From Arctopsyche grandis (Eukaryota; Arthropoda; Insecta; Trichoptera; Hydropsychidae), in assembly GCF_051622035.1 (NCBI RefSeq), contig NC_135355.1:39165986-39229985 (forward strand): a stretch of 64,000 nucleotides of DNA, in the 5' to 3' direction. The notes beneath the pieces were generated by a model. The model did not search any database, was not told the DNA's origin, and saw nothing but the letters and a program-made list of their open reading frames with translations. Below are positions 62 to 25,800 of this stretch, piece after piece. Each line of letters begins with the position of its first letter. Positions within the stretch are counted from its first letter, which is position 1. The translations under genes and the position numbers were made by a program.

Positions 62-805
62 TATTTATAGTTAGTATTGGATCATTGTGGCTTTACAGGA
101 AGAACCTAATGCGCCACAATGACCTACACTTAAATTAAGAAAATAATGATGAGCGCAGGTCACCAGATAAATATGTTAAAATAATATCCGAGAAGTCGAA
201 TAGCTCTTGGTATAGGAACCATTCGAAAAAGAACTGTGCGAGCAGGAGGTACAACCATCAAATGATGATGTCTACCACGCACATAATTATTAGGGACATA
301 AAGTCCCAATTGTTCCAGCAACAACGGGCATGATGTATTACCACGCAGTAGCTGGAGAACGAAACGAATTAACGAGAAGTTTCTCCGAAGTTCAAGGGAA
401 TTATACCCAAGCATGCCCAAAAGGAAAGGAGTAGGATAGAGATATGGGTAGTACCCATACTCTTTCTTATATAGAAAACGAAGGAATGCTTTTTGCACTT
501 TTTCGATAATAAGAGAGTAGTTTGCTTCATGCGGATTCCACACAATCGCATTATACTCTAGCTTACTTCTAACAAGCGAGTTGAAAAGCAAGCGAGAAGA
601 CAAGGCATTGGAGAATAACCTAGCATATCTCAAGACTAATCCAAGTCGACGAAAGGAAACGTCAGCGACTGTCTTGATGTGGTTGTGAAAGGTGAATTGA
701 GGATCAAAAATGATACCAAAAATGATAGATTCCACACGCTTCAACAACACGGATCCAATGTAATATCCGTGACAATAGAGCGAATTCGCACGTCCATAAT
801 TCATA
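62..805 (-). mobile_element. 5'-truncated LINE (lineage A) in an mRpS31 intron
   Basis: The minus strand encodes the C-terminal part of a non-LTR reverse transcriptase protein (160-804). It is closely similar to the longer copy at 28832-30791, with the same run FRRLGLVLRYA and the motif YNAIVWNPHEANYS. The 3' end carries a 10-bp stem with a 21-nt loop (82-122) and a TAAATAAATAA-type tail ending near base 62. The copy is 5' truncated and starts about 25 bp inside the intron after the last visible mRpS31 exon. Assignment to the Jockey/CR1-like LINEs is inferred from the reverse transcriptase style. Confidence 0.85.
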
Positions 806-830
806 ATTACATATGTGTATTAAAGCATAC

Positions 831-1862
831 CTTGTTCATTATCAATAGGGAACTTCCATATTTTTCCTTGATTTGTCCATTGAATCATTTTATCGAAATA
901 ATTTTCAGGCGGGTGTGCTATTGCTACATTGTTTTCATACTCTTCTAGATCCTTCCATATCGCCAGTTCCACTCCTGCAGAACCTTCGAAATCTTTCGTG
1001 AATATACCGAGAGGCTTTCCATCGAGTAGGTGGACTGATTGTATTTTAAATCTGCAATGATACGACATTTTCAAAGCCTATACTTGTTAGAAATCTGATG
1101 ACACCACCGATAACTACGCATAGTCTACCTCGATGTAAATGAGGCTGGATTTGTTCTGGTGTTGTAAGATTCTCCGACGTTTTTAGACATGGCACTTCTC
1201 ACCTGCTGCGACCTCGTGACTTTGGCGACGTATTCGTTGGTGCTTTCAGTATTGTCGATCTGCATGCCGTCTATTAATTGGCTGAAAAGTTTAAAAGATT
1301 TCAGTTGAAAGATTTTCATTAGGTGAGGATAAGAGTTGGGCACTTTTTGAATTTACCCCCAGTTCAAATTTGTGATTTGGTTTGGAACTTCTGTTGCCTT
1401 TGCAATGAGCTCTTTTTCAACGTTGGGATCGTCTCCGAAGGATTTCGCCACTGATGCAGCTGCGTCTTTGATATTTTTCACTGTAAATAACATTTCCAGT
1501 TCTTATAAATGGCATTTCTGAAATATATATGTACATATATAAAATGGGGACTTACTAGATTCTTCAAATTCTGATTTGATATTGGATCTCTTTTGTTTTT
1601 GGAAGCCGTAGTTTTCGACAGGTAGCTTCGGTTTGGACACATTTTGGGGTTGAGCATTGGCTTCGATCATGCTTTTGAGGATGTCGTTGATTTTGTTGGT
1701 AAGTTCCTCTTTTGATTTAGGTTTTTCTTCATTTGACGGTTCTGCGGATGAAACGGGATCACCGTCTCCCGAAGATTTTGAACAAAAAGTCCTAGTTATA
1801 TTTTTTTTAATATTATCCACGAATATGGGCCTGTGTAGAAATTGATCTCGATAAGAATACAT
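831..1862 (-). CDS. mRpS31: Mitochondrial ribosomal protein S31 (mS31), 3' end outside window
   Basis: This is a component of the small subunit of the mitochondrial ribosome. Four exons are visible on the minus strand: 1862-1556, 1480-1357, 1281-1129 and 1051-831. All have GT/AG borders and phases that join (1, 2, 2, 1), giving about 268 codons. The diagnostic part is the end: a Q-L-I-D-G-M segment, then FKIQSVHLLDGKPLGIF, then MIQWTNQGKIWKFPIDNEQG, which matches the conserved IQWT-EGK-W-(F/Y)PI-NE core of MRPS31. The N-terminus (MYSYRDQFLHRP..., basic, few acidic residues) fits a mitochondrial presequence. The in-frame ATG at 1862 is preferred; the same frame stays open eight codons further but has no earlier ATG. 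At least one more exon must lie left of base 1, because the last exon stops at phase 1 and the C-terminal helical part of the family is missing. Confidence 0.85.
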
Positions 1863-2206
1863 TTGTATGAAATTAATTATAATCAATTTATGTATTACCT
1901 AAATGTTCGCAAATGTAGCATTTTTAGCTTTTAATTAGGCTTAGTTTTATAAGATTTGATCGACCGATCTAACTCTGGTCGGAAAATAACATTGACGGAA
2001 ACATAACCTCAAAAATGATATAAAACGATTTTATACAGCCATTGCGAAGTATCATTTTTTTCACGAATCTTCAGCTGAAATTGATTATAAAAGTAGTTAT
2101 TCGATATTTTTAATGCATAGATTTATCATGAAATAAGAGAAACTATCGTTATGAATATAATTTATTTTGAAATAAAGATAAAGTAAAAATGATAAACGTT
2201 GACTAA
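1863..2206. other. Upstream region of mRpS31, no gene seen
   Basis: AT-rich sequence 5' of mRpS31. No long open frame with coding character and no clear TATA or initiator element is recognisable. The mRpS31 promoter is presumably here. Confidence 0.4.
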
Positions 2207-2426
2207 AGGTCTATTTCATACTTATCCAGCACGATCCGTATCCTGCAGGTGTCATGTAAGTGCGGTTAGTATTCAATGGTACATTCTATATGGACGCGCA
2301 TGAATGCGTAAATGCGCATGCCCGAATAGAGTATGAATACGTCCATATAATGTACCAAATAATACTATCCGCACTTGCATGACACCTGCAGGATACGGGT
2401 CGTGCTGGATAGGTATGAACAGACCT
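2207..2426. mobile_element. Palindromic MITE with TAA target duplication (PIF/Harbinger-like)
   Basis: The two halves are near-perfect inverted repeats. The left end AGGTCTATTTCATACTTATC mirrors the right end (reverse complement AGGTCTGTTCATACCTATC), and both arms contain CCTGCAGGTGTCATG. TAA flanks the element on both sides (2204-2206 and 2427-2429). It is 220 bp with no coding capacity. The superfamily is inferred from the 3-bp TAA duplication only. Confidence 0.75.
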
Positions 2427-2429
2427 TAA

Positions 2430-3250
2430 CTTGAATATTTTTTGCTAATGAAACATAAAAAAACCTTGTAAAAAATTCATAACATCTTAATGGACTCAGG
2501 TTTACCAGCAAAAAATACATTATTTTTCTAGTCGTTGGAATAACCCGATCTTTCAACTTTCTTAAAAAAAAGCACTGCACGTATATTTAAATAATCAAAA
2601 ATATATATGGAGGTTATTTTAATTGTTTTACTGTGGTTATTTTGTAATAATACGTCGTACAGTTTATACAGAATACGTAAATAGTTTATTATTAATTTTT
2701 CAATTTAACCATCATGTTTTTCAAACTAATTTTCCTGTCTTAATTATTTTCTTGGTGAGGGAATAAATTGCAACCTTCTCGCAATCCTCACCGAAAAGTA
2801 TTGCTAAAAATCAAATTTGATCTTTTTTACAATGAAAATTCGATTTTTTAACGTTACTGAAAAAGAGAAGCTTTTTTTATTTGAAAAAAATCAAACAAGT
2901 ATTTAATTTACTGGCTTATTCTAAATACTAATATTTTTGAGTATTTGTATTTTTGAGTACTGTAAATTTTACAGAAATATAGTCGCATGCAGTTCATTTT
3001 ACTATAGTTCTGAGGCTTAAAAACAATGATCTCTTCGGAAGGCTGCGAACACTTAATTGAAGAAAAGCCTGTTATAGAAGAATGGCGCCTATATTATATT
3101 ACAAAAAATATCAATAATCAAAACAAAGAAAGGAGGGGGGGGGGGGGCAAATAACGTCCTTGATTAATTAAGGCGAGGTTGCTTTGAGGGTCGTGTCTCT
3201 GGATATGCTTGAATTGCGACATGTATAATTTGGTAAACGGATTATTCCGC
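2430..3250. other. AT-rich intergenic DNA, nothing recognised
   Basis: No coding frame, RNA gene or terminal repeat could be supported. A run of G sits near 3136-3147. Confidence 0.4.
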
Positions 3251-3252
3251 GA

Positions 3253-3690
3253 AAGGTGATCTCTCGCACGTAACTAAAATCTCAATCACGGAAAATCTGG
3301 CACCCAATAACTCCATCTAAGCCACGCGAAATATTGAACCAACGAGAACTCGAGTGCCAGATATTCCGCATTCGCGATTTTTGTGGCAACGATTATCGTG
3401 CACGCGACCTAAATTTGCGCAAAAATTCGTTTACCATTTGATTCCTATGATTTCCTACAAGATGACGGTTTTTGTTATTTCGGTAATTGGATTATTAGTC
3501 ACATCACGATCGTCCAAAAGACAATTTTTGCCAAAAAAATCGCTAATACGGAATATTTGGCACTCGAGTTTGAGTGTTAGTGTGATAGTTATCGTTAGTA
3601 TGATGGACTTTTCGGCTGCCAGATGTTCCGTTATAGAGATTTTAATGACTTTTGGGCGAGCGCTTTGTGACCAATAATCATCGAACCGTT
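3253..3690. repeat. Long imperfect inverted repeat, probable MITE
   Basis: The arms pair at several levels. CTCGAGTGCCAGATATTCCG near 3348 mirrors 3545-3568, where the complement reads CTCGAGTGCCAAATATTCCG. An outer block around 3275-3305 (ACTAAAATCTC...GGAAAATCTGGCA) mirrors 3617-3650. Symmetry with no coding sense suggests a decayed palindromic element. Its exact ends and target duplication are not clear. Confidence 0.5.
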
Positions 3691-3770
3691 ATTTAGATAT
3701 CTTGCAAAACTTTCAAAAGTAATCGGTGGGGCTAGTTTAAAACGAGTCTTATACAAGTCGCACAAGTAAT

Positions 3771-4740
3771 TTATTTATATATAATTTTAGCTATTAGCTA
3801 ATTTAAAAAAATACATCTTAATAACTTAAATATAAAATTCTATATTTAACTTATATGTACTGTCCCTCACAGAGGTGTCTCTTCGCTCCTTGGAAGAATG
3901 CATCCATGGTCTTAGAAGACCTGATGCACTCAGGGAAGGCATTATACATTAGCACACCCCTGCGAAAGACACCCTCAGCTGTCTTTCTTTTTTTTTTATT
4001 CTACTTACAACTAAATTATTCTTATTTCTAGTCAGGCGCGGCTCGTGCATAGGAACTGTGGCGCTGCAGCACCCCCAGAAAAAAATACAAAAATCACATT
4101 TGTATACATTTACAACTTGTGAATATTGTGGCGGCTCGCTTATACGACATGGTCGAGTTTGGTTGCCTTCCTGCGAGTGGGAACCAACTCGGCTGGGTTC
4201 GGAGAGTCACTACTCACTCTGCCTTTAGCTGTCATATAATAAACACGTGCATTAACATGCCAGTCGTCTCATTCGTTCATCCTCCATAATATAATTTAAA
4301 TAAGAATGATTAGATATTTGACATACATATTCATTATTAATGAGTATGTCAAATATATCTAAATACAAGTTGCAAATGCGATTTTTTCTGGGGGTGCTGC
4401 AGCGCCGCAGTTCCTATGCACGAGCCGCGCCTGTTTCTAGTGTAATGATTATGAATATCTCCATTTCTTATTTTATAATCCTTAAAATAATCGGGTAATA
4501 ACTCATGATCTAACAAACGATAATGTATTTAGCTTTAAACTATTACTAATACACAACCATCCCAATTCATCTAACATACTTGTAATACTTTTTAATCTAC
4601 CAACATTCAAATTACCTCTCATAGCTTTATTTTTTTGTAAGTTTTGTATTTTCCCTAAGAGATTGTAATTGTAATGAGAAGAGTGATAACACGCTACTGC
4701 TCGTCGGTATTTAGAATAGTCTTTGCGGTAAAGATAATTG
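3771..4740 (-). mobile_element. LINE (lineage B) 3' fragment, interrupted by a hAT element
   Basis: The minus strand gives a typical LINE C-terminus: LPDYFKDYKIRNGDIHNHYT, then RGVLMYNAFPECIRSSKTMDAF, ending KRHLCEGQYI and stop. Further upstream are GWLCISNSLKLNTLSFV-type residues. The same C-terminus recurs at 63720-64000. The fragment is split by the hAT element at 4033-4433; the 63.9-kb copy shows the uninterrupted site. It ends just upstream of the GC-rich PDI promoter, and its left (5') border is approximate. Confidence 0.75.
4033..4433. mobile_element. hAT-type non-autonomous element, perfect 8-bp duplication
   Basis: Terminal inverted repeats of nearly 50 bp begin CAGGCGCGGCTCGTGCATAG. 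TTTCTAGT is duplicated on both sides (4025-4032 and 4434-4441), and the uninterrupted site is seen at about 63974. The interior (about 4131-4270) contains a block starting TGTGGCGGCTCGC with an AATAAA, part of which resembles 19190-19275; it may be an older LTR fossil captured inside. Confidence 0.9.
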
Positions 4741-4956
4741 GAGAGATTGAGAGGTTGCAGACGTGGCGAAAGTGGAGATACGGGGCAGCCGGCCGTGAAT
4801 CCACGTGTTGCGACTATTGGGGGGGGTTCGGTGGAGGGGGTCCGGCCAATGGGGTTTGGCCAGCGGGACACGTCCGTCACTTGCCGGCGTGAGGCTGCCG
4901 GGGAAAGTCGTCTCGTTCCGGTTTCCTAGTCGTTTCACTCGGTTCATCAGCTGAAG
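4741..4956 (+). promoter_or_regulatory. GC-rich promoter/5' UTR of the PDI gene, with a possible ER-stress element
   Basis: This is a sharp island of high GC in AT-rich surroundings, directly before the PDI start. It contains CCACGTG (4801-4807) and CCAAT at 4846-4850, followed after exactly nine bases by CCAGC (4860-4864). The metazoan ER-stress element is CCAAT-N9-CCACG, so spacing and CCAAT fit but the second half-site is only a 3/5 match. Regulation by the unfolded-protein response is expected for this family; the site itself is an inference. Confidence 0.4.
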
Positions 4957-7900
4957 ATGCAGCACTCGTTCCTGTGGATGATGGCGACGGCCGCCGTCGT
5001 GGCTCTGACAGTCGTGGCGGCCACCGAAGAAGACGTCCTCGACCTGACGGATGCCGACTTCACTTCTGGCGTCACGGAAACCGACACCACGCTAGTCATG
5101 TTCTACGCACCTTGGTACTATTCCACTATTTCACTCTTCAACTATTCTGATACACTCACTCACTCACTCAACACCTTGGACAGTCTAATCAAATTGATCA
5201 ATAGAACGAATTACCGTTAGCTCTACCTATGTATATGAGTACATCATCACTACAACTCATGTTCTGATCAACTATTCAAACCAATCTGCTTTTGATCAAT
5301 ATAAACTGTACAAATCTTCAAATTATTCAATTAAACAATGAATTACATTTTTTTTTGTATTTTTAAACTACATATATATATGTACTTATGTTCATTATTT
5401 TATGTACTTTTTATATAGGAATTAAAAAAAATAACCTAAATTCGCATCATTCCTTCTATTCTAAAGTACGTTCCATTTTTGCATCGTGTGCATTTCAATA
5501 TCTTTTGCTGACTCAGTTAAGTGAATAATCGAAGATTAAGCACTTCCGTATCATTTGATAACTGCTTATAAGTTTATCGTATTTTTTTACTAAACCATAC
5601 CAAAACCAAAAGCACTAAGCTGTGATAATTTTTTTGAGAAACTGAAATAAAAATATCGTAAATTTTCTATACAGTCAGTACTAAAAATAATCAAAAAAAA
5701 TTTTGATCACTTTCTTCGTTTCCTCAAGCTTTCCTCGTGCCTTCTGACTTCCATAATACAATCCACCGACAGCCTACAGCTCAAAGTGACTCGGCTGCAA
5801 TATCCTAGTAGCAGTTCTGACCTGCTCATTCCATCTAGTTGGAAATCTTCGTCTTCTTCTGCTGCCTAGAATGAGTAATTTTCCTGTTCATGCCTCACAA
5901 TGTATCTAAAGAACTTGAACATACGCCCGAGACAGATAGATGATGATCTTTCGCCAACCTTCAACTCTTCAGGAGATTCTAAACCACCATATGCAGCATC
6001 TACACCTTTTTCTAGCTCAAACCAGACATACTTTCTAAGACGAGTCGTTCTAAATTTCAATATTGAACCTTTCACCACTCCGATTCGTCTTTTTATTTCA
6101 GTCTCACACCCTCCGTCGTCTGATAACTTTCTGATGAACTTCAAGAATCCACCATTATAATATTGGTTTTCGCTCTGTTGATCTCGAGTCATAGTATTGT
6201 TGCGTTGGGGTGGATGGAGGATCCAAGTAAAAGGCCAAAGTCGTTTCACAGCATTTATTGGTGATTAAGGAGATACACACACTGGCAATGCTCCGTCCAA
6301 AATGTCTTGATTTCGCCTAAGTACCGCCTTATAACAGATAGGTCGCTCAGGGCATCTTCGACGTCCAGTTACTTCCCTATTGTTTAGGCATGTACCCGGA
6401 TATGTATTCCCACGACACTCAGTCCCACGCTATCGCTGTCACTTCCGAAAAGGGATCAATAGCGTCCAATTCGGTGGCCATTGTTTAGCCTACTTGCACT
6501 TAGTCTGGAGATAATCCTTGAAACCAATTATAATGGTCACACAGTCTCTGGGATGCTACTCGGCCTAATCCGATTGCACTTACTCGGCGGTGTACGTAAC
6601 AGTATTTTGCTTTCATATTGCAGACAATGGAGTAGATTTCTTCTCCATTGTCATTTCTAACATCTAGGATTCGGTCTACTCCTCGCAGTCCTATGCGAAG
6701 TTGAAAGCAGCATTAAGGAACCATCAGTTCTTTAATTTGATCTGACTATCTTATAAAATACTGTCCTCTCGCTCACCTTTCCTCTACTGTTCTAGAGACT
6801 CTCATATTTCTTACTTAAACAGGCCTGCTTCTAAGGCTGATGAAACGTTTAATGTGACCTTATTATATTCATAAGTCAACGTATGTATTATTACGTATGT
6901 ACAATTGGTGGTGGTTTGAAACACAAATGTCGACTTTAACCAAAAATCAATGGAACAAAACTGCACTCCTACTTGCTTATGTTTAGAAAAGCTCTTTGAA
7001 ATGAACTTGACTATCACTTCTTCTTCTTTCTCGTTTGCTGAATGCTGAGTGTTGTAGTCATTTCTATCGTCTGTAATCCGGTGGACGATCGTTCTCCATT
7101 CCTCACAGTCTTGTGCCAAGTTAAAAGCAACATTAAATAACCATCCTGTCAGTTCTTTAATTTGATCTGACCATCTTATAAAATACTTCCTTTCGCTCGC
7201 CTTTATATACATATATGGAGTTGGGGTAATTTCTATCATTTGGAATCTGATGAACGATCTGCCTCTACTCCTCCTGGTCCTGTGCCAAGTTGAAAGCAGC
7301 GTTTAGGCTTGATCTCATCAGTTGTTTAATTTGATCTGACCGTAGATAGATTTTAATATTTACTCAAGTAACCAGATATGTTAATTAACACAAAGTATAA
7401 TTTTAAACAATAAAATACATAATATATCTCGTAGTTTTGGCTTAATTGTCAAATAATCGTTCTTCATACAATTGAGATGTATCGTCTCAATTGTATGAAG
7501 ACGTGACGTCACATAATTGAGGTTTCAGTATGGTTCCACAAAAAACGAATTTTGACTGGTATATATTCATTTTAAGCAAATTAAATAGATGGCATTCAAC
7601 TCTCAGTAATATATTCAACCAATTTTGAACCTTAAAACAGTTGAAATAGGCGCATATAAGCCTCAAAATCCTGTGCAAAGTTCAGAAACTCTATGAAAGA
7701 CAGCCGTAGGCAAACGGTTAAACATCTACTATATACATACATTTTAATTAAAAACATCTACATTAAGGCAGTCACGGAAACCATTAAATGTAAAGCCTCA
7801 TTTCTATACTATAAATAACTTTTTACATTTAAAGTTATAAAATTTAATCGTCGCGATAATTATGCGAATGTATTGTTACATTTTACAGCCACGACTGCAC

Positions 7901-10900
7901 TAAAATCACTCGCATACATATGTAAGCTTTAATTTTTTCACTCCGCTGATAACAAACAATGATAATAATACATTCACAACCTAATCACACACACAACAGA
8001 CGGCACAATATCTTCACCAACACCTACATAACTAATCAGAATTAATTACACTATCATATGTATGTATATTATATGACAAAAATATCGTATTCGCTTTGCA
8101 GGTGTGGACATTGCAAACGTTTGAAACCGGAATATGCTAAAGCGGCAGAACTTCTCAAAGCCAATGACCCACCCATCGCTTTAGCAAAGGTCGATTGTAC
8201 CGAAGGCGGCAAGGATACCTGCGGAAAGTACTCCGTGTCCGGATATCCGACGCTGAAGATCTTCCGCAACGGTGAAGTCTCTCAAGACTACGGAGGCCCC
8301 CGCGAAGCCAGTAAGAATCGTCCAGAACTTTTGTATCTCGCGTCCATTCCCGATTGTATTAATTGATTATTTTTACAGGTGGTATTGTGAAGTACATGCG
8401 AGCTCAAGTCGGACCCAGTTCAAAGGATTTGAAGTCGCTGAAGGATTTCGAAGACTTCATCGCCAAGGATGAGGTCGCCGTCGTTGGATTCTTCGAAAAG
8501 GAGACCGACTTGAAGGGTTCGTTCCTTAAACTGGCCGATAAGCTGCGGGAGAAGGTTCGATTCGCTCACTCTTCGTTGCCTGAAGTGCTCAAAGCCGGCG
8601 ACCAAACGTTAGTATACGTCGGCACATTGAATGTTATAACATGTATGAATGTTGTTGAAAATATAATGTGCTTCTCTTCACAGCAATGGAATTGTTTTGT
8701 TCCGTCCCAAACTGATGTCGAATAAATTCGAAGACGATAAGGTCGTTTATTCCGGCAGCGATGACTCAATTGATATCAACAAGTTCATCACTCAAAATTT
8801 GTAAGCTGGATTTCATGCAGTGTGTCTGTATGTGCTAAATAGTACACGCTTTCATTGTGTAAAATTGTTATTTTAGCCACGGATTGGTCGGATATCGCAC
8901 GCGTGACTCCGCTCCGGACTTCAAAAAGCCTCTCGTCATCGCATTCTACAGTGTTGATTATGTTAAAAACCCCAAAGGCACCAACTATTGGAGAAACAGG
9001 ATTCTTAAAGTTTGTATAGTATTTTTTTGCTTCAAAATAATATATACAAAAACGGAAGGATGTATGTTTGTAAGTATGTGGCGAGTGCATCGACAATTAT
9101 GGAGATTTCAATTATTATTATATTGATTTTGAGTCCAATTCTGACTACGGTTTCAACATCGGGTCTAACTTTGGCTCCTATTACGGTTCTGACTTTGGTT
9201 CCTATTACGGTTCTGACTTCGTTTCCGATTTCAGTTGAGACTTTGGTTCTTCCTACGATTCAGTTGTGACTTTGGTTCCTACTACGATTCAGTTGTGGTT
9301 CCTATTACGATTCCGACTTCAATTGTGACTTCAGTTTCAACTTTGGTTTTGACATTGGTTCCGAGTTCGGTTGCGACTTTGGTTTCGACATTGGTTCTGA
9401 CATCGGTTTTGACTTGGTTCCTACTATAGTTCTGACTTTTGTTCTAACTTTGGCTCCGACTTCGGTTGTGATGTCAGTTCCGACTTAATTCATGACTTCG
9501 GTTTCTACTATGATTCCGACTTTGGTTGCGTCTTCAATTCCGACTTCAGATGTGACCTCAGTTCTTACTATAGTTCCGACTCCGGTTGCAGCTTTGGTTC
9601 CAACTTCAGTTACAACTACGATTATGATGGCAATTGTTGTTGTTTGTTATTTTCACACGGCTTCGCTCGGTATTTGTAATATAAACAGCTTAAACATGGC
9701 TAATCTAATATTTCCAATAAAATTCATTTGATGTTATATAAAATTTATTTGAATTGAAAAAAAATTATATTCAACGATATCGATATCGTCGTCATAGAAA
9801 CATTTTTTTCAATGCTCCCAACTAAAATTTAAACCTTACAAAGTCTCTTTCGAAATTATATATTAGATGACTTATTTTAATTCATGTATCAGTTCCTTTT
9901 CCAAAACCAACCGTTGAAATATCAACGGGCACAACACTTGTCTTACAATATGAAACGAGCAATTCATGTATAATTGTAAATCTCATTTTGTATATAAAGA
10001 TTTTGATGAAATTGGATAAATCCATTATTTTGAATATGCCAAAGTGATTTTTCAAGTCAATACTTTGAAAAAACTCATCCGTCCAAGTATTATATATTAA
10101 ACTGTATTTTTTCTTTAATGTGGGATTTAGTTTTCTGACCTGGAAGACTGTATCTATGAATGATTAGGTTGGCATGCGTGAGTTTAAGAATGGTTAAGTT
10201 GTCATCTTGTAAACGTAACGCGTCGAACGACAGACCGTTGCGGCGCTCCGTCTATTAAACAATGTTTTAAACTGCTCAACGTGTCGTTTTGTCTCCTGCC
10301 AAACAGATCCTACAAAAATATGTTTTTTTTTAGGTTGCTAAAGAGTATTCCGATGAATTTACATTCGCCATCAGCTCTAAGGATGACTTCACCCACGAAC
10401 TCAACGAATTCGGATTAGATTATGTCAAGGGAGACAAACCAGTTGTCTGCGCTTACAATGACGTAGATCAAAAGTTCATCATGGAGAAAGAATTCAGGTT
10501 TATATTCCACATAATACACACACACACATTTAACTTTAAACGTTGATATTTACGACACGTTTATATTTAACAGCGTCGAAAACTTCCAAGACTTCCTCTC
10601 TCAGTTGAAAAACGGAGACCTCGATTCGTACGTCAAATCCGAGCCCATTCCTGAATCCAACGACGCCCCCGTCAAAGTAGCTGTCGGCAAAAACTTCGAA
10701 GAAATCGTCACCAAGAACGGCAAAGACACCTTGATTGAATTCTACGCACCGTGGTGCGGACATTGCAAGAAACTCACCCCAATCTACGACGAGCTCGGTG
10801 AAAAGGTCGGTGTGAAGTTACATTTTTGTATATATCTGTAATTTAATTGTAAGAGTTTGATTACATTATTGCTGATTACGTTTCAGATGAAAGATGAAGA

Positions 10901-11206: not shown

Positions 11207-11433
11207 AGTGTGAAGGCAGTGCATTTATTTTGTATCTCCTGGTAACATTTACCAGCTTAAAATACATGTGTGAATAGAATCTGTTTGTACGGTAATTTTA
11301 AGGAACACTTTTAGAAATCAAAAAAAAAAATAGTCGTAATTAAGAAGGTTGTCAATTCCATAAATACTGTGTTATTTTGTTACGCGTGTCTCGTAAAGGT
11401 GCAACACTTTTCAATTTATTTTTTTTCTTTTGA

Positions 11434-11439
11434 AATAAA
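11434..11439 (+). promoter_or_regulatory. Likely PDI polyadenylation signal
   Basis: AATAAA lies about 228 bp after the PDI stop codon and is followed by T-rich DNA. It is the best candidate in the 3' region before the LTR at 11503. Confidence 0.45.
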
Positions 11440-11502
11440 TCATTTTTTTACAAAACATTTGTTTTTCTCTATTGAGTATATCTTCTATATAATATACATA
11501 TA

Positions 11503-11729
11503 TGTGGTAGAGAATCCTGACAGATGACGCTGTTCAGGACCACGGTTGGGATGTGGCGGTTGAGGTGAAGACCAAACACGTGCGTTTTTAGTCATGCTGT
11601 TTATTAGACGATACGTGCGGAGGCTTAGCGACCAACCGCGCGGAGCACAGGTCCAATTGCGACTAACCGTTACATCTCTACCTCTTTTCATCCCCATACA
11701 TCAACCTTTCGTTCAATTCCAACCCTACA
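11503..11729 (-). mobile_element. Solo LTR fossil, second family (Ty3/gypsy-like)
   Basis: 227 bp bounded by TGTGGTAGAG and CCAACCCTACA, with TATA on both sides. It is the same family as 61692-61965, in opposite orientation. Confidence 0.75.
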
Positions 11730-11742
11730 TATACATATATAT

Positions 11743-12879: not shown

Positions 12880-13516
12880 CCCCCAAATGCCTATAGTACT
12901 TTTATAAATCTCTATCTATGAAACTTGAACTTATCCAAAGACGCTTTCTCCGACTGCTTTATAAGGAGCAATACGGGATTTACCCATATTTATTTCCTTC
13001 ACAATTCGTCATGGGTATGGTCGGCTACACTTCTCTTGACCACAGGAGGAGTGTTGCCCTCATCAAGTTCTTGTTTTCCATATTTAGAGGCTATATCTCC
13101 TGTCCGTCTATCCTGACTGAGTTGGACCTTCATGCTCCGGAGAGTGTGATATGGACCCGCCATCGTCCCCTTTTTCACACTCCTGGCTAGAACTGTGGCT
13201 TTTAGTTATTCTCCCATTCTCCGTTTCGTAAATTCACTGGATGGTGCTATTGACATTTGTCACATCTCTCTTCATTCTCTGCACCACTTCCCAAGTTACG
13301 GAAGTCGCGACCATTTAGAAAGGTTGACTTAGTTTATTTAATTATGAATTTATTAAGAATTTTTTTTTCTATGTAATATTTTATTTATTTATCTTTTCAT
13401 GTACTTTTTTCCTTTTGTCCTTTCTTAATCTTTTTAGCACACTCGTCGCTTTGGAGCAATCTGTTAGACGAATGTGCTTGATTAATTGATGTTGTATAAT
13501 AAAAAATAAAAAAAAA
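12880..13516 (+). mobile_element. LINE fragment related to lineage A (A2)
   Basis: The frame at 12918-13190 gives IQRRFLRLLYKEQYGIYPY, then GMVGYTSLDHRRSVALIKFL and CPSILTELDLHAPE, the same domain as lineage A but divergent. The 3' end has a stem-loop at 13436-13478 (arms AGCACACTCGTC/GACGAATGTGCT) and an A-rich AATAAAAAATAAA tail. Confidence 0.8.
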
Positions 13517-13861
13517 TACTCATTATCTTTAACTGACTCCTAGGATCGATTTCTATAAGTATAATTAAAAATTAAAATAAAAAAGAAGGAATTTGGTGAA
13601 GGAGGAGGAAGCATGTTATAAACATAAGAGATAGAAATTCTGTATTTCTAAAGTCACAACACACCATTGCAATGTATCCATAGTAACTATCGAACATACA
13701 CAACAAACGCTAGTATTGTAGCAGCTGTTTTCAATGTGAATAAAAATGAATATCATCAGGAAAGTATCATCACCTCAAGGGTAATCCATTGATATTTAAA
13801 TTAATTCTTAATACAGTACACAAAAGAATCCTGGTTACCTGTGCATTGTAGGAATCAAAGT
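13517..13861 (+). other. Upstream region of the AHI1-like gene
   Basis: No gene recognised. A possible splice acceptor (GTGCATTGTAG) lies 10 bp before the AHI1 start, so the gene may have a non-coding first exon in or before this stretch. Confidence 0.35.
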
Positions 13862-16800
13862 ATGTACTCGTCCCAGCGTCAGTTGTTCGACGATGATAAC
13901 ACATCAGACGATATAGTGGTTGGCACCATACACAATCTAAAACCGAAATCATTCGTCAACAACGCTTTTGAGATAGACGAAACCAAAGCTCCAGTGCAAG
14001 CATTCGTCGAAAGACAAGAATTGGAAATAATCGACGACGATGAAAACACGTCTTGCGACATACAGAAAATATCTAGCAGTTCAGACATTCAAGAGATGAT
14101 TCGAGACGCTTCCAAAAACGGAGGTCTTCCAGGGGTTCACAGACGCAAAACTAGAAAGCAGAAGCGGGGTTTGGATGTTGAGTCTAACTTGTCATCGCCT
14201 TCGATTTCCAATTCAAAAGTTAACATCGATTCTGACAGGAAATTTAGCATCAAACAAGCGTTGAAACCTTTGAATGTCTCTGACGATGAGTTGCTTGTCG
14301 GGAAGATCGCCGATTCAAATATCGAAAATACAGACGAGTCCTCAGAACTCTCTGTGAAGCGAAAAGCTAAATCGAAAAAGAAATCTAAACGCAAAGAGCG
14401 CGACTCGTCTCAAACTGAAGATTATGAAATGACACCTGTAAAGCATAATAAAACTAAGGAGAAACACACCAAAGGCGATCAAGACTCAAAAATCATTGGT
14501 AAAAATATAACACGCATTCTTGACTTTATATGCTATTTCAAAATTAACATCTTGACTTCAATTAAAATTAGATTCCACAGAAATTGAATTGACAATGCTT
14601 GGTATAAGTCTTCTTGCATATCTAGTAATTAAATGCATTCAAATTTACAACTTGAGATACTGATTTTCCGAATAGTTCAATTCAATTCAGTGGCGTAACT
14701 ACTGTGACGTAGGGGTATGCGGTACATGCGATCTCCAAATATTAATATATATATGTATGTATATAAAAAATAAATAAAAACAAAGTCTTAACACATAGGA
14801 TACCACGGGCTATTGCTAAAGAAACAGGCGTGCGGCGGGGAGAATTTGCGCTAATCTTTGCATAAAACTGTAACTGTTTAAAATGTCATATCTCTTTTAC
14901 CAGTAAACGTATAAAAGTGAAATTTGAAATGCAGTTTCGTATGGACTATCTTAAAATTTCGTAATTGTAAAATCAGTAAAAGTCAAACTGTGAGTCGCGT
15001 ACTAATAAAATAAATAATTAAAATGTGTATAAATATGGCAAATATACATATTTTATAAATAAACAAAAAAAATCTAGCAGCAGTGAACCTTTGTGTAACA
15101 AAAACAACAAATGTCGTTATTTGAAACCTATAAATACAATGCAGTCAGATGCAATTCCATATGCGCTTTGGAATTGCCGACATCCAACAAGGTTAATCCT
15201 CTTTCGTCATAAATAACAATATCAGTGAGAGAATTTTAGGACATCGGCAAAATCTAAGAGGAACATAAAACAGATGTGAGAAAAAAAAAAGGTCCCCCCA
15301 AAATGTGTTTATTACCTAGTGCAGTGGTTAGTAACCAGGAGTCAAGTGTAGGCAATAAATTACCGAAGAAATATAAAAGGGCACATAGTAAACAATGGTG
15401 ATATTTTCTTCAGAACATGAATATAAAAAAAATCAAACATATTTATTCAACTAAAAACACAAAAAAAGCACTCACCCAGCAAACTGCACCCCTTATGTAG
15501 ATATTCACATTTGATTGATTGGTAGATATTTACACAATATTTATTTAAAAGTTTCCTTTATATTATAATATATTATCGATAAACTCACTTTATGTATATT
15601 TTTATTATTTACACACACACACGTTATTTAAACACAATATGAAATTCGTACACTAATGAAATTTTATATCTAATATTTTTTTTTTGTATGGTAGTCTTGA
15701 TAACACTTTCCAACATGTAGTGGAATTTTACATTGTTTACACATAAAAGCACTCAGTTTACGAATTTTTAGTTTTGCACACACTCGACAATTACGTCTCA
15801 CTAATTTATTCGTTTTTTCATTAGTTATTTTCACTAATTCATGATCTTTTATGAAACCACGTAGTCTTTCGTTCGGATCAATGCTGGGAGTCCTCGTCAT
15901 GACAGAAGTTGAAGGTATATTGGAATGTGTGTCTGATGTACCTGGTGTATTGGAAATGTTACTCTGAAGCCATGCCTCTGCGACTTTCAGCATAAACTCT
16001 TGGAATTTCCAATTCGTCCCATTCAACTTTTTGTGGATATGATAAGCGTTCAAAATTCCGCAATGCATCAGATACATTGCGGCTTTCTTCGTCCACTTGA
16101 TGGTTTTCCGTGAAACGGGGTTGTACGATAGGTACTGATCCGCGAGATCGACTCCACCCATAAATTTATTATAGTCCATGATGCTGATTGGCTTCTTGAT
16201 GGGTTGATTTGTTTTCCTGTCGATTTTGCCAGTTTCTACAATTTGCGCCTGATGGATGGTTGAAATAATTCTGACGTCTCGTTTTTTGTTTGTCTTCCAA
16301 ATTTGAATCAATATATCCCCCTTTCTTCGATGTATTGATTCATGAATTTGTAAGCGGGCGTTTTTCAAAATTTGCGGTAAGCCACGATTTTTTCTAATAG
16401 TTCCGCATATTCTTGTTTTAGCTCCCAATAAATTGGTAGCTAAATTAACGCTATTGTAATAATTATCAGCGTAGACATTGTACCATTTATTTAAGTACGG
16501 AGATAACAAATCGGTGATAGTGTTATTCAAAGAAGTACCTACACCCGAATACAATTTGAAATTACAAATATAGCCACTTTTTGCTTCACATATCATCCTA
16601 TTTAGAATCCCGTACTTAACGATCTTCATAGGGTTATACACCTTGCATTTGAGGCGCCCCCTCCACGGTATCATGCCTTCGTCCAAAGACAGGTTTTGCG
16701 TCGGTGTGTACGTCTCTTGAAACTTTTTCGTGAAGTAGTCTATTATGTTTTGAATTTTAATTAGGCGATTTGGACTGCCGGTCGGAATCTTCTCATTGTC

Positions 16801-19800
16801 AGAAAAGTGGAGATACCTTAAAATCTGCTGAAATCTATTTCTGCTCATCGTCTTTCGAAAATATGGAGTTTCGATAAGAGGATTGGTGCTCCAATAGTCG
16901 CTGATGGAATTTTTTCTGACAATAGCCATTATCAGAACTAATCCGAACCATTTTTTTAGCTCGGGAACGAGAACATCTCTCCATTTTCGCGAGTGTGTGG
17001 AAGTTGGATATTTGATATTATTTTTGGCATAATATCGGTTTGTCTCCTCGGCTATAATACCAAATAAATCATCTCCAATGAAGAGTGAAGTCACGTCTCC
17101 CACGTTAGATGGATTATCAGGAAAAATGTTCAATCCTGGTAGTCCTTCAAAGCTGTTGAGATTTCTAGGAGGATCAAATTCGGACCAATCCAATGTCACA
17201 TCAGGGATACCTTCTTCTGAAGAATTTTCAGATTCTGACTGGTTGACACGTGGTTCTGAAGTTTCTGACTCAGAATCTCCACTTTCTTGGACATAAGCCT
17301 CATCGATGTCTTCTTCACCTTCGCTAGGAGGTTGAGAAAGTTGGTCTTCGAAAGTCTCGTCAAAAAATGAATCTTCTCTCTCAGCCATTTTATAACGATA
17401 ACACAAAACAGAAAACACGAAATTTCACAATAAAATCAGAGTTTTATAAAATAGTCACAAAAACACAAAATCCATTTATAACAATAACACAACAGAAAAC
17501 ACGAAATTTCACAATATAATCCAAAAGAGTTTCACAAAAACACAAAATCCAAAAAATAGAATCCAAAAAGCATCGAAAATCAAAATAGTCAAAGATATCA
17601 AATAGAACACGAAATCTAAAAAATAACGCGTATATTTATCGATAAACGTTTCCTCGTCACGGTCAGAAAAGGACTGAAATGATCTCGACCTTTCTGAAAA
17701 TATAGCACCCTTATTTTTTTCTACCTATATCTTTTCTACGAATTAGTAAATATGTCAATAGAAAAAAAATCTGTTATGCATATGTGAACATATGTGAGCT
17801 TTCGCTGGTTTCGAACCTCTGAAAAGGTCGATGACGATCTGTTCTATTATTTTTACAAGCCTCCTATACGCTTTAGTTAAATAAAATAAAATTTGAGACA
17901 TCTTCGGCATAACCAAAGAAATATTTTGTAAATTTAAAGAAATATTTGGTACATTTGCTATAGTCCAGTTTCTAACCTTCTGGATTTTTCAGTATCGACT
18001 ATTTTTAAATTATTTTAGTTAAATATCACCAACGACATCTTTTACTAAGCCCCGATATGAATAAATTACAAGAAATACGAGGTTCAACGTGTTTTTTCTT
18101 TATATGAAGTAGGAGTGACGCAACGCACAAATTTGTGCGCACGGTAGCCAGAGGAAGTTTTTCAAACGCACAAATTTGTGCGCACGGTATCCTGCGTGTT
18201 AATTGAATTTTTTTTCAATTGAAAACAGTTAGAAGTATGTATAAAAAAATCTACTTGTTCTGCGAACTTGAAATATTATTATGAATAAGTTTATAAAATG
18301 TCTTTAAAATATGTGATTGTATAATTTTCGAATTTACATACATATATGTAGGCTAAGAAGGACATTTAAAATTAGTAAGTTTATTTATTTCATTAAAAAA
18401 AATGGGGGGGGGGGGGGGGCATTTGGTAAATTTTTCTTGCGGGACAAATTTTTCTAGTTACGCCACTGATTCAATTCAAACTAATGTACAACTAATTGGA
18501 ATTGTTTTCTGAATTAGTTTAGATATCATTAAATTATGTCTATTTTTAATCTTTAACTTTTAAAAGTTCATTTGTACAGCTTCTCTTCATACTTTTCAGA
18601 AGATAATATGCACATTAAGTTAAAAAGTCAGCTTTTAATTGTTAACCTTTTATTTAAATAACTGTTTTACTATATTTTGATGTTAAGGGTAAAAATATTG
18701 ATTAAAATTATTAGTTTTCTTGAATAAAAATCTTCAATACATATTTTTAGATTTCATTTTCAATTGTAAATAGTAATTTCATCTTCATATTTCAGGTGTT
18801 CATATTGTAGGCAGTGAAGTTTTGGAAAAGCATTTATTTTTAAACAAGCCATTAGTAAGAGTGTACGTCGTGGATAACCAAACAGAGACTGTAATTTTTA
18901 CTGGAAATTCGATAGACAAATCTGCGGCTCAAACAAAACCATTTGATTTTCGTGAGAAATGGTAAGAATCATATGCGATGTGTTACAAAAATGTATTTAT
19001 TTTTTCATTACACTTGTAAATATTTTAATTGATCGATTCTCAACCTACATACATATGTATGTTATTTGGAGAAACTCTTTTATAATTTCTTAAAATCTCA
19101 GGGAAGCTCTCTTATAAACCATTGAGCATATTATGGGGGGCGAAAGGAATTAAATGACAGTATTGTTGTAAACATGTCTGTTAAATATGACGGGTGAAAA
19201 GTAAAGTAGTAGCCACCAACATGGTCGAATCGGTCCCAAATCGCAGAATGGCAACCTAAACTCGACCATGTCGTTGAGTCTTTGCAATATTATTATAGAA
19301 ATATGTACTTCTATTTTCATAGAGGAGTTTTCTTTCTTCAGTGAATCTTACTAACATTAAATTCTGGAAACCGTGGATATAGTTTTATGATTGAGAATTT
19401 CTATGTATATTTGATAACACTGTTCGACAAATGACGACTTTTTTATTGGTTCAGAGACGAGATATTACTTTTCTTATAGATATATGCCCAGTAAACACGA
19501 ATCTGGTAATAAAAAATGTTGATTGGCTCGAGATTCGGAGATATATGTGTTTTTCAAATAGCGCGATTTTTCTATATCTTCGTGTTGTTTTGTCGATGTC
19601 TCAAAATCTGTCAATTTCCTGTTCAAAATGAATATTGGAATCTATAGTCGGGTATTTTATCTTTCATTTGTATATTATCTTTCATAACTTTGCAGCTTTC
19701 AAATCTCTCTAAATAGTCGTCCAGTTCAAATCAAAAGTCAAAAGTACGTATTTTCACTTGCGATTTTTTATCACTATTAATATTATTTTATATTGAGTTT

Positions 19801-22800
19801 TTTCTGTTGAAACATGTTAATTGGGATAGTGTTCTAGCCATACTATTTTTTGTTTTCGTTTAAAAGGGTTAATTGGAAGTGTGCTGAATTTTAAATCGGT
19901 AAAATTGTGAGCTAAAAGCTCGTACTAGTATTTACACGAATCTGAATTGAATTAATAGGGATAATATATTAAATTGTCTTTATATGAGAATTAAATAAAA
20001 TTCCACTTAGAAAAATGTCGAATCTTGAGCCAATCAACATTTTTTATTACCAGATTTTACTATAAGAAAAGTCATATCTCGTCTCTGAACCATTTTTCGT
20101 GTCGAACAGTGTAATTGAGATACGTTCTACCTTGGATAGTAAAATTTGACGATTACATTTAAAATAACCTATGTACATATATACAAAATACATACATATT
20201 TATTATATATTCATTCTTTAAGCACGATAATTCCAAAATGGAATGAAATATTACTATTGGATAATACAATAATAGAAGATATGAAATTACTTAAAAATAT
20301 AATAATATTATTTGAGATTGTTGATGAAGTTCAAATGACCGATGAAACATCAGGTGTGTTTATATTTATTTACATAGAATATACTTGTGGAAAATAGTAG
20401 TGATTTATTTATTTATTAGAGCAGTTGATATTTTTTTTCTATATTTTAGGTACTAAATCTTTCGAGTCAGTGTCGTGGGCCTTCATCAAACCTTTAGGTC
20501 ATGATGGTTGTTCAAATATGAACAAAAAACTAAAATTACAACTGTACGAAATCGACCAGTCTCATAATAATAAGACCAACGTATACGAATGGTGGAAATC
20601 GAAACCTTGGAAGAAATATCCCAGCGTTTTAAACGTCATCGTGATGAGTTTGAAATGCAAAGACTATTCAGATAAGATAAACAGTATAAAACTGGCAATA
20701 ATGAGCAACAACAGAGACGAAGCAAACGTAAGAAGTAAAAAATATTTGACGAATTGCGAAAAAGTATATACTTTCGACAGTTTAAATATACAAAAAAGGT
20801 CTTCGGAAGAATGTGTCGAAATTCCCAATACAATCATTTCAACGCTAAACAACGCTGATGGAAATACTACGATTGTAAAGTTTAGCCCGTGCGGAAAATA
20901 CTTGGCATATTCTGCTTTAGAAAACGACAAATATGTTATAAATGTTTATAAGGTTTGTGAATGATTCTGATTTAATATTTTTCTGTGCCTCCCCCCCCCC
21001 CCATTTTTTCTCGAAAAAAGAAGTACATATTAAAAATATTATATATTATATAAACTTTATGCATATATACGTAGTATTTATTTTTACAAACGTTTCACTT
21101 ACGATTACAATTCAGGAAAAAATTTGCCTCTTATCCGTTCGTTTTCATACTTTGCAATATTGCTCATTTTGGTCGTCAATATAAGCAAATGGATCCTCCG
21201 CCATTACGATAGAGGTAAAATATCGTTTAATACGCGTTTGAAGTTTGCAAATTTGAAATCTGGGTGACATCTATGTAGTCTTTAGATACATAGATGGCGG
21301 TAGTAAAATAAAATTATTGGTATTTTTATTCAAAATAATAATTTATATATCTTAATTACAACATCAAGATGGTGACGAGCTTTTGAGAGGAGATGCACAA
21401 CTCGACTAAATCCATATTCATGTAAACGCCTTCCCAACCTTATTTAAAAAATATTTGGCACAAGTTCTTGATAAGGTCTCGATATCTGCCAACTATTTAA
21501 GCAGTTTTCACCATCTAGTATATTTTCACAACCTAGTATATTATCCGAAATGCAAACGTATATTCAGTTTGATGACAAATAAAACATTTGAGCACTTATA
21601 TCGATATTATTTAAATATAATTTTTTTATAATTTTATTTTGACTTTTTGATATTTATTTTATTTTATTTTTTTTTATTTTTTTATTTTACATATATACCA
21701 GGAAGGCCTTACAGGTAAATCCCAATGCGCCTTCCTGGCCAATTACAAATACAGCATTTTTATTATAAGTCGTTGAATTGCGAGACACTGAAAAAACTCG
21801 CAAATTAACGAGACATCTATGAATTGTACATAAATTTTTATTGTACATCAATCAAATTTTTCAAATAGTGGTGACATAGTAGGTAGGAAGGATTTTTAGC
21901 CAATTTTTTTTTCCGGGAACCGTTTCAACAATGAAATCAGAGAAAATTGGCAAACTCTGATAGGAAACGATCAACCTGGAGTCACAAATCCAGGTCTGAC
22001 CAACAGCATACTCTGAAAAATTCATTTTCATTCAGGGATAGAACCCGGCACCTTCTTGACGGTAAGCAGAAGCTTAACGTCCGAGCTATGCTGCTGGCTT
22101 TTTATATATATTTTTTAATTTTATTCCCCTGGGGCTCGTTATGCCTCCCCAAAAGAAGAATTTTGGTTTGTGCCTCCTTTGAGAGGGTCTGGGCCTCCCA
22201 AAGGGGTCATGTGGACCCATGTTGAGAAACGTTGTATTCGTTGGCCTTCATTTTACCAAAAGTACTTTATTTTACAAGTCTAATATTTCTCTATTAAAAC
22301 TGTAGAATAAACATAAACAATCTTAAAGAGTCTTAGCTCTAAATTAGTGCAATTATTTATTTTATTCACTATAAACTCACAGCCAGCAGCATAGCTCGAT
22401 TGTTAAGCTTCTGCTTAGTGTCGTGAGGTGCCGGGTTCGATCCCAGGGCCGGGCCTCGAGTGAAAATGAAATTTTCAGAGTATGCTGCTGGTTAGACCTG
22501 GATTTGTTGATCGTTTCCTATCAGAGTTTGCCAATTTTCTCTCTGATTTCATTGTTGAAACGGTTCCCGGTAAAAATTGGCCAAAATCCTTCCTATATAC
22601 GTATATACAATATGTTACCAATAATTTGTGTTTGATTAATGTGCAATCAATAAGTTTGTGTACGATTTGATAGATGTCTCATTGATTTGCGAGTTTTTCA
22701 GTGTCTCGTAATTCAGTTACTTATATAATGAATAAAAAAATGCTGCAATATTTGTAATTGGCCAGGAAGATGCATTGGGGTTGCCTGTAATGCCTTCCTG

Positions 22801-25800
22801 GTATGTGTTGTCATAAAAAATTAAAAGACTTGCACTTTTGGTATGAACGGGCATATATGGGCGTTTAGTATTGACATTTTCAATTTTAGATACCAGAGTT
22901 TGAAGAGGTCACCAAACTATCATGTCATAAGGGTTTGATTTATGATATCTGCTGGAACATTTCCTCGACCCAATTGATTACAGCGTCTGCAGATAACCTG
23001 GCATATATATGGAACATATCTGATCGAGAAAAGTGCACAAAACAAAAGCTGTACCATCCAACGTTTGTTTACGCGGCAAAATTTTGCAAATCAAACGAAA
23101 ATATCATAGCAACCGGATGCTATGATAAGATTATTCGCATTTGGGTATTGGAGTCTAATGTGGATGCTAAATATAGACTGTCAGACGAACTCGTTGGTCA
23201 TAATGGATATGTTAATACTATATGTTTCTTGGATTATAGTGAAATGTTTTATTCGGGCGATAGTGACGGAGCCATATTCAAGTGGGCGAAAGGAAAAGAT
23301 GGTTGGGTCAAGTTGTTGTAAGTAAAAATGTATTTTTTTCGATGCGGTGCAAACGATCGACAAGCGCCAGACAGACTGAACCACAGATTAACTGTACGTG
23401 TACCTTATGCGTGCGCAATGCTCGCACTTATAGTAAGTGAAATCTACCCGAAGTCCCGACATACCTACCCTGTATACGTTCTGTGCTTCTGATACTTTAG
23501 TTCCGAATTTTGCCTTATTAAACTCGCCAGAAAGATCCAACTCAATTTTAATAATTGCATCTGTGCACATCGAAAGGTTACTCGTCGTCTGATGTACAAT
23601 CTATCATGCGTGTAGTCGAGAATTGCGTTTAAAGCAGCCATCCAGTTAATCTGTGGTTCAGTATGTCTGGCGCTTGTCGATCGTTTGCACCAAACCCTTC
23701 TTAAAGTATTGTATTGTAAATACAGATTCATATATATATGTATGTATATTTTAGGGATATAAACGTTGCAGAGTTTAAGGGTAAAATTATCAACGATCTT
23801 GTGCTATTCAATGATAATCAACGCGTGTTAGTTGTGATGAGAAATGATACTTCTTGGTCAATGAATGCTAACTCCTCAACTACATTCACATGTTACAAAA
23901 ATGGAATTCTCAATAGGTGGGTGTTTATATATCTATATAAAATGGAATTTGCAGTATGTTTATATGGTTAATTTTAAGGAAGAACCTTGTGATACTACTG
24001 AGTGCTTTTTTTTACCTTCGATGGTACTTCTGTTCAATAGTATTATATTCGTTTCATATCAATTGCCGTAAGAAGGTTTATAAGCTGATAAGAAAACTCA
24101 ATTAGAAACAAACATTAAAATGATATAGGAAAAAAAAATTAAAAACGATAAATGTAAGGTAATCTTTTAAGGTCTCGCCTTGAATTTGCCTCAATTAACT
24201 GGTGAGCTTTTTATATAATATATCCCATATTAATTGTATTGAAAAAGTCCAACTAAAATTTATCAAATCCGTTTTCTTATCTACCTACGCCTATATGTAC
24301 TACTGTTTCCGATATTTTAAAACTCCTATCCTTTAACAATCTTTCTGTCAGGCGATGACTCACTGAATTCCTTTTTAAGCTCCTAAATGGTTTCCTTGAT
24401 TGTCCCGATTTACTGAGTAAGCTCGGTTTCAGGATCCCAGTAAGGTATACTAGAAACTCTACACTCTTTTCACTTAATACTTTAAAAAACAAATCCCTAA
24501 AATATTCTTATCTACAGCGTGTTTATCGTATGTCTAACGGGGAGCTGAATGACGTTGATCTATTCGGTATTTCCTTCAGGACTGTCATCAGTAGAGGTAG
24601 GACCGGAAGCGCGCCGTCTATTGTTCCATTATTGTAAATGCTTTGTAAAAAAGGTTCGGCAAACCTTTAACAATGTATTTACAACATGTGAACAATGAAC
24701 AGCGCGCTCTGGGTCCGCTCTTTAGTCATCAGGAGAGTCTTGATTGATTGATTCATTTTCTATTTCTATTATATAATCTTTATCCAATATTATATCACTT
24801 TATGTTTAGTTATATACTGTTTTATTTAGTCATGTTTTAGTTTTTATTATTTTGTTTTTCATTTGTTTGTCTATATATACCATTTTACGTAATTTGAAAA
24901 AATCTATAATTGGGCTGAGGTGTTATTTTATTTTGTTACATTTATTCTTTACTTTTATGCATTTCTACATTTGTTGTCTGTTGATTTTTCAATAAATAAA
25001 TAAGTAAATAAAGGTTGTGGCTATTTGCAGGTACTATATCTGCGAATTATTGGCTATTTGCAGGTACTGTATCTGCGAATTATTGGCTATTTGCAGGTAC
25101 TATATCTGCGACAGGCGCAAAGTCTTCTGCGCATGAGCGTGAACTTATAATCCGATTAGAATTTCTCACATTTAATGTTTTTAGACTTGTTTAATGAATC
25201 GTTCATTATACATGAGGCAAATAAATTTTGCACTTATTATAATAGATTTATATCATTTAGCTAGTTCGCGGTTTGTACTTGTATGTAGGTATTATACGTT
25301 GTATATGATAATAATTTTCTAATAATTAATAATATTAACTAATTTGGATTATATGTTTTACTCTACGTCACTTTACGAGTTCGAACTAAATTTTAAGAGG
25401 TTTAAAACAAAATTTTAATAGTAAACACGCTGACAGTGACAGTTCACGCGCATGCGCAGAAAGCTTTGCGCCTGTCGCAGATATAGTACCTGCAAATAGC
25501 CACAACCATAAATAAATGAACAATAAAAGAAAATTTTGGTGTAGTGTAAGTGCACTGACTATTTTTACCTGGATAATTTTTTGTTTCATTGGATTTTAGA
25601 TATCAGGCAAGAGGATGTCTGTCTCCCTGTGGAACATTCGTTTTAATAGGAAGTAATATTTGGAACGCTGCAACTGGAGAATTGTGCGCAATGATCAGCC
25701 CTGCTCAATTCGATCATCATCCAATCATGTCACTTGATTTTCATCCATTTTATAATCTCACGGCATTGTCATGCGGTCGAAAAAATTCCCCGCTTGTTCT

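Follow-up and report, generated by a model that had tools for sequence, protein, structure and literature searches.

A compensated 3' hairpin with a near-constant core shared by diverged LINEs and SINEs of the trichopteran Arctopsyche grandis

LINEs and putatively tRNA-derived SINEs in the genome of Arctopsyche grandis end in one type of hairpin. Its outer stem differs from family to family with its pairing kept, and its core, made up of an internal loop and an apical stem, is almost fixed. This hairpin is very probably the 3' RNA recognition element of a stringent-type group of non-LTR retrotransposons. Compensation between the families makes an RNA signal at the 3' end well supported, and its function is suggested by precedent in other LINEs. 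The preliminary description of the window (the whole stretch of 64,000 nucleotides analysed) had proposed an RNA signal read by a LINE reverse transcriptase (RT) and had named LINE A as the partner of the SINE. A structured 3' signal was indeed recovered in two LINE families and a SINE, and it is the choice of LINE A as the partner that was not supported.

The hairpins of LINE A, LINE A2 and SINE copy 1 were all found in the window where they had been described. That of LINE A copy 1, at 82-122 on the minus strand, has arms TCATTGTGGC and GCCACAATGA forming 10 bp with 21 nt between them (covariance model hit 79-124, 54.3 bits). It belongs to a 3' part of the element at 57-819 (minus strand), which includes the C-terminal part of the RT ORF at 160-819 and an A/T tail at 57-81. 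The copy is shortened before its 3' end. The outermost pair is T-A, as compared with C-G in the LINE A consensus across the genome, CCATTGTGGC/GCCACAATGG; hence the T-A pair is private to this copy, and it is a compensated change in its own right. LINE A copy 2, which was absent from the preliminary description, lies at 28817-30787 on the plus strand and is 94% identical to copy 1 over 621 bp. It is incomplete on the 5' side and includes an RT ORF upstream of the tail, with RVT_1 in 28838-30286 (Pfam E 3.3e-28), an internal (TA)n array, a 3' UTR and a tail, and the 3' arm of its stem-loop at 30720-30765 (plus strand) has decayed. The LINE A2 copy at 12897-13519 (plus strand, 3' part) consists of a C-terminal ORF piece ~40% identical to LINE A, a 3' UTR and a tail. 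Its hairpin at 13436-13478 (plus strand), AGCACACTCGTC/GACGAATGTGCT with 19 nt between the arms, forms 11 of 12 pairs. All 12 bp of the stem pair in the consensus of the family, so the single C-A mismatch is due to decay.

SINE copy 1 (21698-22105, minus strand) is composed of a tRNA-like head, a central domain and a 3' hairpin at 21698-21738 with arms CCAGGAAGGC and GCCTTCCTGG and 21 nt between them. SINE copy 2 (22382-22804, plus strand; hairpin 22760-22804) is inverted relative to copy 1, and the stem of the SINE copy that ends at 22801 consists of eight pairs followed by a mismatch and a wobble. A further SINE, copy 3 (48267-48975, minus strand; hairpin 48275-48319), is an addition to the earlier listing, has another tail variant and is split by other sequence. 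In the SINE head, a B-box-like GGTTCGATCC and an A-box-like TAGCTCGGTTG were recognised by eye, and ARAGORN reported no tRNA in 21000-23500. When seven SINE copies were checked for target-site duplications, shared words of 6-10 nt were found, with none in one copy and with the 5' end misplaced in at least two.

Perfect 10-bp hairpins with loops of 17-23 nt were counted on both strands of the window and of 40 dinucleotide shuffles of it. The shuffled windows contained a mean of 2.7 such hairpins. The window itself contained 930, corresponding to 465 places on both strands, and 453 of the 465 places are at least 75% A+T. The motif was borne by 2 of the 930, namely those of LINE A copy 1 and SINE copy 1, and by none in the 40 shuffles; a chance origin of the motif hairpins was therefore rejected. 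Folding z scores of six tail sequences ranged from -5.2 to -7.6 (1000 mononucleotide shuffles each). Rfam covariance models, among which UnaL2 is presumably represented, matched none of the hairpins at E <= 1, the sole match across the whole window being a sub-threshold snoR10 at 62625-62693.

Copies of each family were sought in the genome (475,669,232 bases in 189 contigs) by similarity searches in which the best 40 candidates each were scored. A LINE A probe from the end of the ORF, excluding the hairpin, gave 3186 first-look candidates, and the 39 scored besides its own place were 95-97% identical. The loop pattern was present within 3 edits in 24 of 30 fetched loci, the window copy being among the 30. 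A best match to the LINE A tail was placed in 29 of them, including one that pairs at 0 of ten positions, and all ten stem pairs were intact in 20 of the 29 copies. For A2 (hairpin again excluded from the probe) there were 692 candidates, those scored besides its own place being 88-94% identical with one 31-nt piece not counted; the tail could be located in 28 of the 30 loci, and 15 of the 28 have all ten pairs. The central domain of the SINE, designated S1, gave 1068 candidates. A search of 20 small regions recovered its tail within 9 edits in 18, and among 28 loci the tail could be placed in 26. One of these 26 (L072) carries a hairpin of type D after a SINE tail that is broken.

A further type of SINE, S2, which has another tRNA-like head, gave 1628 candidates, of which the best 40 scored 96-100% over the probe; its hairpin was detected at E <= 0.0021 in 14 of the 16 copies fetched. 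A hairpin in a flank led to an older family, D. This family gave 91 candidates, and the best 40 scored were 79-95% identical besides its own place (mostly 79-89%), eight of the 40 lying in one cluster. In the 0.9 kb upstream of 20 fetched D copies, a search for RT returned one 51-aa stretch, in L095. As judged by its tail, D is probably a LINE.

The RTs of LINE A and LINE A2 are related, sharing 40% identity over 436 aa, and one tail architecture thus spans diverged LINEs. Peptide patterns of the LINE A RT gave 61 matches in the viral_contigs collection and 227 in genome_contigs, none of which was confirmed by tblastn. A scan with the loop pattern returned no contig from genome_contigs and one from viral_contigs, where the match lies inside a 705-aa ORF without an outer stem and was taken as chance. 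Topic searches of the literature brought up no paper whose title or abstract showed it to deal with these families, and the six tail sequences were without match in the paper texts searched.

The consensus tails are GGCCATTGTGGC-GCATTAGGTTCTTCCTGTAAT-GCCACAATGGTCC for LINE A, GGCCAGGAAGGC-GCATTGGGGTTGCCTGTAAT-GCCTTCCTGGTAT for SINE S1, AGCACACTCGTC-GCTTTGGAGCAATCTGTTA-GACGAGTGTGCT for A2, and GGCCATAGTG(A/G)C-GCTTTGGGGCAACCTGTAAA-GTCACTATGGTC for D. All four adopt a common fold consisting of an outer stem of 10-12 bp, an internal loop of 3-4 nt per side, an apical stem of 4 bp and a tip of 4-5 nt, and an A/T-rich tandem tail follows the hairpin. The apical stem is conserved as UAGG or UGGG with CCUG, and in A2 as UGGA with UCUG. 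Together with the internal loop, it makes up the near-fixed core GCWTTRGR...YCTGTWA. The tips are TTCTT in A, AATT in A', GTTG in SINE S1, GTTA in SINE S2, and GCAA in both A2 and D. Thus, the loop that had been described as constant is so in its internal loop and apical stem, but its 4-5 nt tip varies between families.

The stems were also said to have changed with pairing kept, and the consensuses of genomic copies bear this out. The inner ten pairs are formed 10/10 in the consensus tails of A (29 copies), A2 (28), the SINE (26) and D (21). At the second pair of D, A or G stands opposite T in similar parts, and A was used in the comparisons. LINE A differs from SINE S1 by four double changes versus no one-sided ones, and from A2 by seven versus none; S1 and D differ by five double changes, and A and D by two. 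With G at the A/G column of D, this pair would differ from that of A and S1 on one side only (G-C to G-U). Across 28 family comparisons, wherever two families differ at a pair that is standard in each of them, both sides of the pair have changed. The hairpins A2b and E, each known as a single copy, have one unpaired position each. When eight substitutions were placed at random in the stem of LINE A, it stayed fully paired in 3460 of 10,637,099 simulations.

Covariation on genomic copies, put forward in the preliminary description as the way to check the idea, is well above that of shuffled alignments between families. In the nine rows behind the covariance model, one of which had a spacer base added by hand, there are 24 double changes as compared with 6.7 after shuffling, a value reached by 0 of 500 shuffles; the number of pair types was reached by 20 of 500. 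The larger alignment (A3) was drawn from 47 hand-chosen sources and fitted to the structure of the model, and is biased towards it; 56 distinct hairpins were retained out of its 71 matches, with five rows dropped. Of their 552 outer-stem cells, 91.5% pair, as compared with 31-48% when the partners are slid. They show 140 double and 34 one-sided changes; the shuffled mean is 40 double changes and the maximum 57, so that 0 of 500 shuffles reach 140. When all 71 rows (60 distinct) are used, 92.6% are paired and there are 156 double changes versus 43 in shuffles. One of five measures in this set, the 10 pairs with a double change, is reached by 71 of 500 shuffles.

Within families the pattern is the reverse. 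One-sided and compensated changes number 16 and 0 in A, 29 and 0 in A2, 30 and 0 in the SINE, and 49 and 3 in D, giving 124 versus 3 in 104 copies, window LINE A copy 1 not included. Such one-sided changes are expected from the decay of dead copies and lend no support to the signal. Since copies within families mostly decay one-sidedly, the evidence for compensation consists of four to five lineages and not of hundreds of copies.

Preserved pairing can also arise at the level of DNA. Quasi-palindrome correction, in which template switching of DNA or cDNA copies a mutation in one arm across to the other, is known in principle and would keep the stem paired without selection on RNA. The changes between LINE A and the SINE affect four adjacent pairs, as if from one tract conversion, and the private outer pair of LINE A copy 1 in the window is of the kind that this process would leave. 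However, template switching should act within families as well, where the 83 copies of A, A2 and the SINE have 75 one-sided and 0 compensated changes (LINE A copy 1 of the window excluded), and it leaves the conserved unpaired internal loop unexplained. This origin of the compensation is very improbable. It is also quite improbable that the hairpin is an RNA element for another role needed by LINE and SINE RNAs, such as 3' end formation, stability or export, although its strong folding and its site directly before the A-rich tail would suit such a role. LINEs are presumably transcribed by pol II and SINEs by pol III, so common processing is a less natural explanation than a common reverse transcriptase; in addition, known stringent LINEs use the same position (PMC4176376).

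The preferred reading is thus that of a recognition element. The ORF2 protein of each LINE lineage would bind its own RNA at the hairpin before target-primed reverse transcription. The outer stem would be required as a helix, and would for that reason drift by compensatory changes, with the internal loop and apical stem held as a contact surface. The putatively tRNA-derived SINEs, bearing their own version of the hairpin, would be copied by some LINE of the group. We infer from these features that the hairpin is bound by protein, needed for retrotransposition and used in mobilisation of the SINEs.

The LINE that copies the SINEs had been proposed to be LINE A. This proposal is not supported; the core is shared, but LINE A and the SINE have different bases at four of ten stem pairs, and neither their tips nor their terminal repeats agree. 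The hairpins adjoin short A/T repeats and not plain poly(A), and in these repeats A-runs of 2-6 were counted. Runs of 2-3 between T account for 96% of 102 units in LINE A (tract present in 25 of 29 copies) and for 93% of 41 units in D. Runs of at least 4 make up 50% of 46 units in S1 and 88% of 26 in S2, and A2 has mixed runs of 2-6 (79 units, tract in 24 of 27 copies) with at least 4 in 54%. Thus, the A-rich repeats of the SINEs look more like those of A2 than like those of LINE A.

It is nevertheless conceivable, if unlikely, that the ORF2 protein of LINE A accepts the SINE hairpin through the near-identical internal loop and apical stem and so mobilises the SINE. The S1 and LINE A consensuses are identical at GGCCA....GGCGCATTRGG....CCTGTAATGCC....TGG except at R, LINE A is abundant, as judged by its candidates and their high identity, and zebrafish LINEs tolerate a foreign stem (PMC4176376). 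Against this stand the difference between the LINE A and SINE repeats and that between the tips TTCTT and GTTG, loop changes not being tolerated in the zebrafish precedent (PMC4176376).

A LINE with the tail of the SINE was sought with a pattern in which the SINE stem is not preceded by T, meant to skip ordinary SINEs. There were 58 exact matches, and 20 were read (12 of the 21 with A before the stem, 3 of the 5 with G and 5 of the 32 with C). Fourteen of the 20 follow a SINE body. Three (L138, L147 and L148) share with the SINE only the last 40-65 nt before the hairpin, and L147 has a second such piece farther upstream. The remaining three (L129, L134 and L137) are a bare hairpin with a tail, and their upstream sequences look mutually unrelated, as 5' truncation at the stem would leave them. 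Among the 20 matches read out of 58 there was no LINE bearing the tail of the SINE, the pattern being a narrow one that would miss a LINE with T before the stem or in another context. In the 345 nt upstream of the matches read there was no RT match at E <= 1, which does not exclude a LINE because the LINE A ORF ends farther from the hairpin. A LINE at L125, with a SINE-like tail directly after it, was considered as the partner and rejected; its own (AAATA)n end precedes an apparent 5'-truncated SINE piece, and the arrangement looks nested by eye. When three other LINE pieces near fetched loci were traced in the 3' direction, a hairpin match was obtained only in L125.

A tentative extension is a modular 3' code unlike that of zebrafish L2. 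The core might serve as the docking site of the whole group, with the outer stem free to change and the tip and terminal repeat conferring specificity for the lineage. In that case the SINEs, which have several tRNA-like heads and one tail type, might depend on some LINE besides the abundant LINE A, perhaps one that is rare or extinct. Three parts of the hairpin can in any case be told apart, of which the stem drifts, the core is fixed and the tip varies, and this division is precise enough to be testable. The outcome for LINE A is also a caution against taking a LINE for the partner of a SINE because it is abundant and similar in its tail.

The families described here are a clean new example of an already known principle. 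In Lepidoptera, partners of SINEs have been assigned by similarity of tails (PMC3272025, PMC8010984, PMC6685494). HaSE1 of Helicoverpa armigera is tRNA-derived, as the present SINEs may also be, and like them has a conserved central domain and a LINE-like 3' end; its partner is the RTE LINE HaRTE1.1, to which it is 82% identical over 43 bp, and the repeats there are TGA (PMC3272025), whereas A/T repeats and a covarying hairpin are found here. The 3' tail of ZenoSINE in heliconiine butterflies likewise resembles that of a LINE family, Zenon, a partnership proposed from sequence similarity in an account whose main text does not use the words hairpin, stem or secondary structure (PMC6685494). Among insects, 3' stem-loops have experimental support in SART1 and R2 (PMC5135761).

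The eel UnaL2 resembles the present case in that a LINE and a SINE have a common 3' hairpin, which is needed there for retrotransposition (PMC4176376). The UnaL2 hairpin has another sequence, and altered stem sequences are reported to lower its retrotransposition strongly, whereas stems differ between families here; hence stems need not be free to change in every such element (PMC4176376). A further likeness is to ZfL2-1 and ZfL2-2 of zebrafish, which have a 3' stem-loop with an exchangeable stem. A foreign stem leaves about half of the activity of ZfL2-1 and still permits retrotransposition of ZfL2-2, in which a broken stem abolishes activity (PMC4176376). Loop changes abolish or strongly reduce retrotransposition in zebrafish L2, the loop being read specifically, and the binding region lies between EN and RT (PMC4176376). 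The specific part in ZfL2 is reported to be the loop; in the present hairpins, as judged from their sequences, it is the internal loop with the apical stem that is near-invariant, and the tip is variable. With these differences, the present hairpins fit the mechanism of stringent-type LINEs by analogy with zebrafish L2 (PMC4176376). Within one genome, diverged LINEs and SINEs carry a single 3' hairpin in no fewer than four versions of its stem, and these natural compensatory changes therefore resemble the stem-swap experiments made with the zebrafish elements.

The central domain (around GTTTGCCAATTT...CATTGTTGAAACGGTTCC) and a hairpin tail of one type are both common to SINEs with differing tRNA-like heads, namely those at genomic loci L060, L067, L031 and L065 and those within window positions 21698-22804. 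These elements form one SINE superfamily in the A. grandis genome.

At locus L072, a hairpin tail of the type found in D, an older family, lies directly behind a SINE body, the own tail of which is broken; this arrangement may be due to nested insertion or to tail exchange. At loci L129, L134 and L137, a SINE-type hairpin and its tail stand bare, with no part of a SINE body preceding them, a pattern resembling a halt of reverse transcription at the stem base. A further LINE piece at 24190-25012 (+), distantly related to the A2 LINE family, has a tail of A/T repeats, and the covariance model of the shared 3' hairpin gave no match to this piece.

Two blocks of the window, at 25.2-31.2 and 32.8-39.5 kb, are repeats of each other, with pieces sharing 91-98% identity, and the repeated block includes exons of a glycosyl hydrolase family 1 gene and portions of another gene. 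The second copy of LINE A is present in only one of the blocks; therefore, the other may hold the empty insertion site. This copy contains a long (TA)n array (30285-30377), and similar simple repeats occur near 32.7 kb and near 59.7-60.0 kb.

The sub-threshold snoR10 match at 62625-62693 (+), at 35.6 bits versus a gathering threshold of 65, is probably due to chance. An uninterrupted 584-aa transposase ORF at 15670-17424 (-) encodes a DDE_Tnp_1_7 domain (E 7e-80), and zf-Tnp_2 was also matched, weakly, slightly below the cut-off. The ORF is possibly a recent insertion, and the transposase is presumably piggyBac-like.
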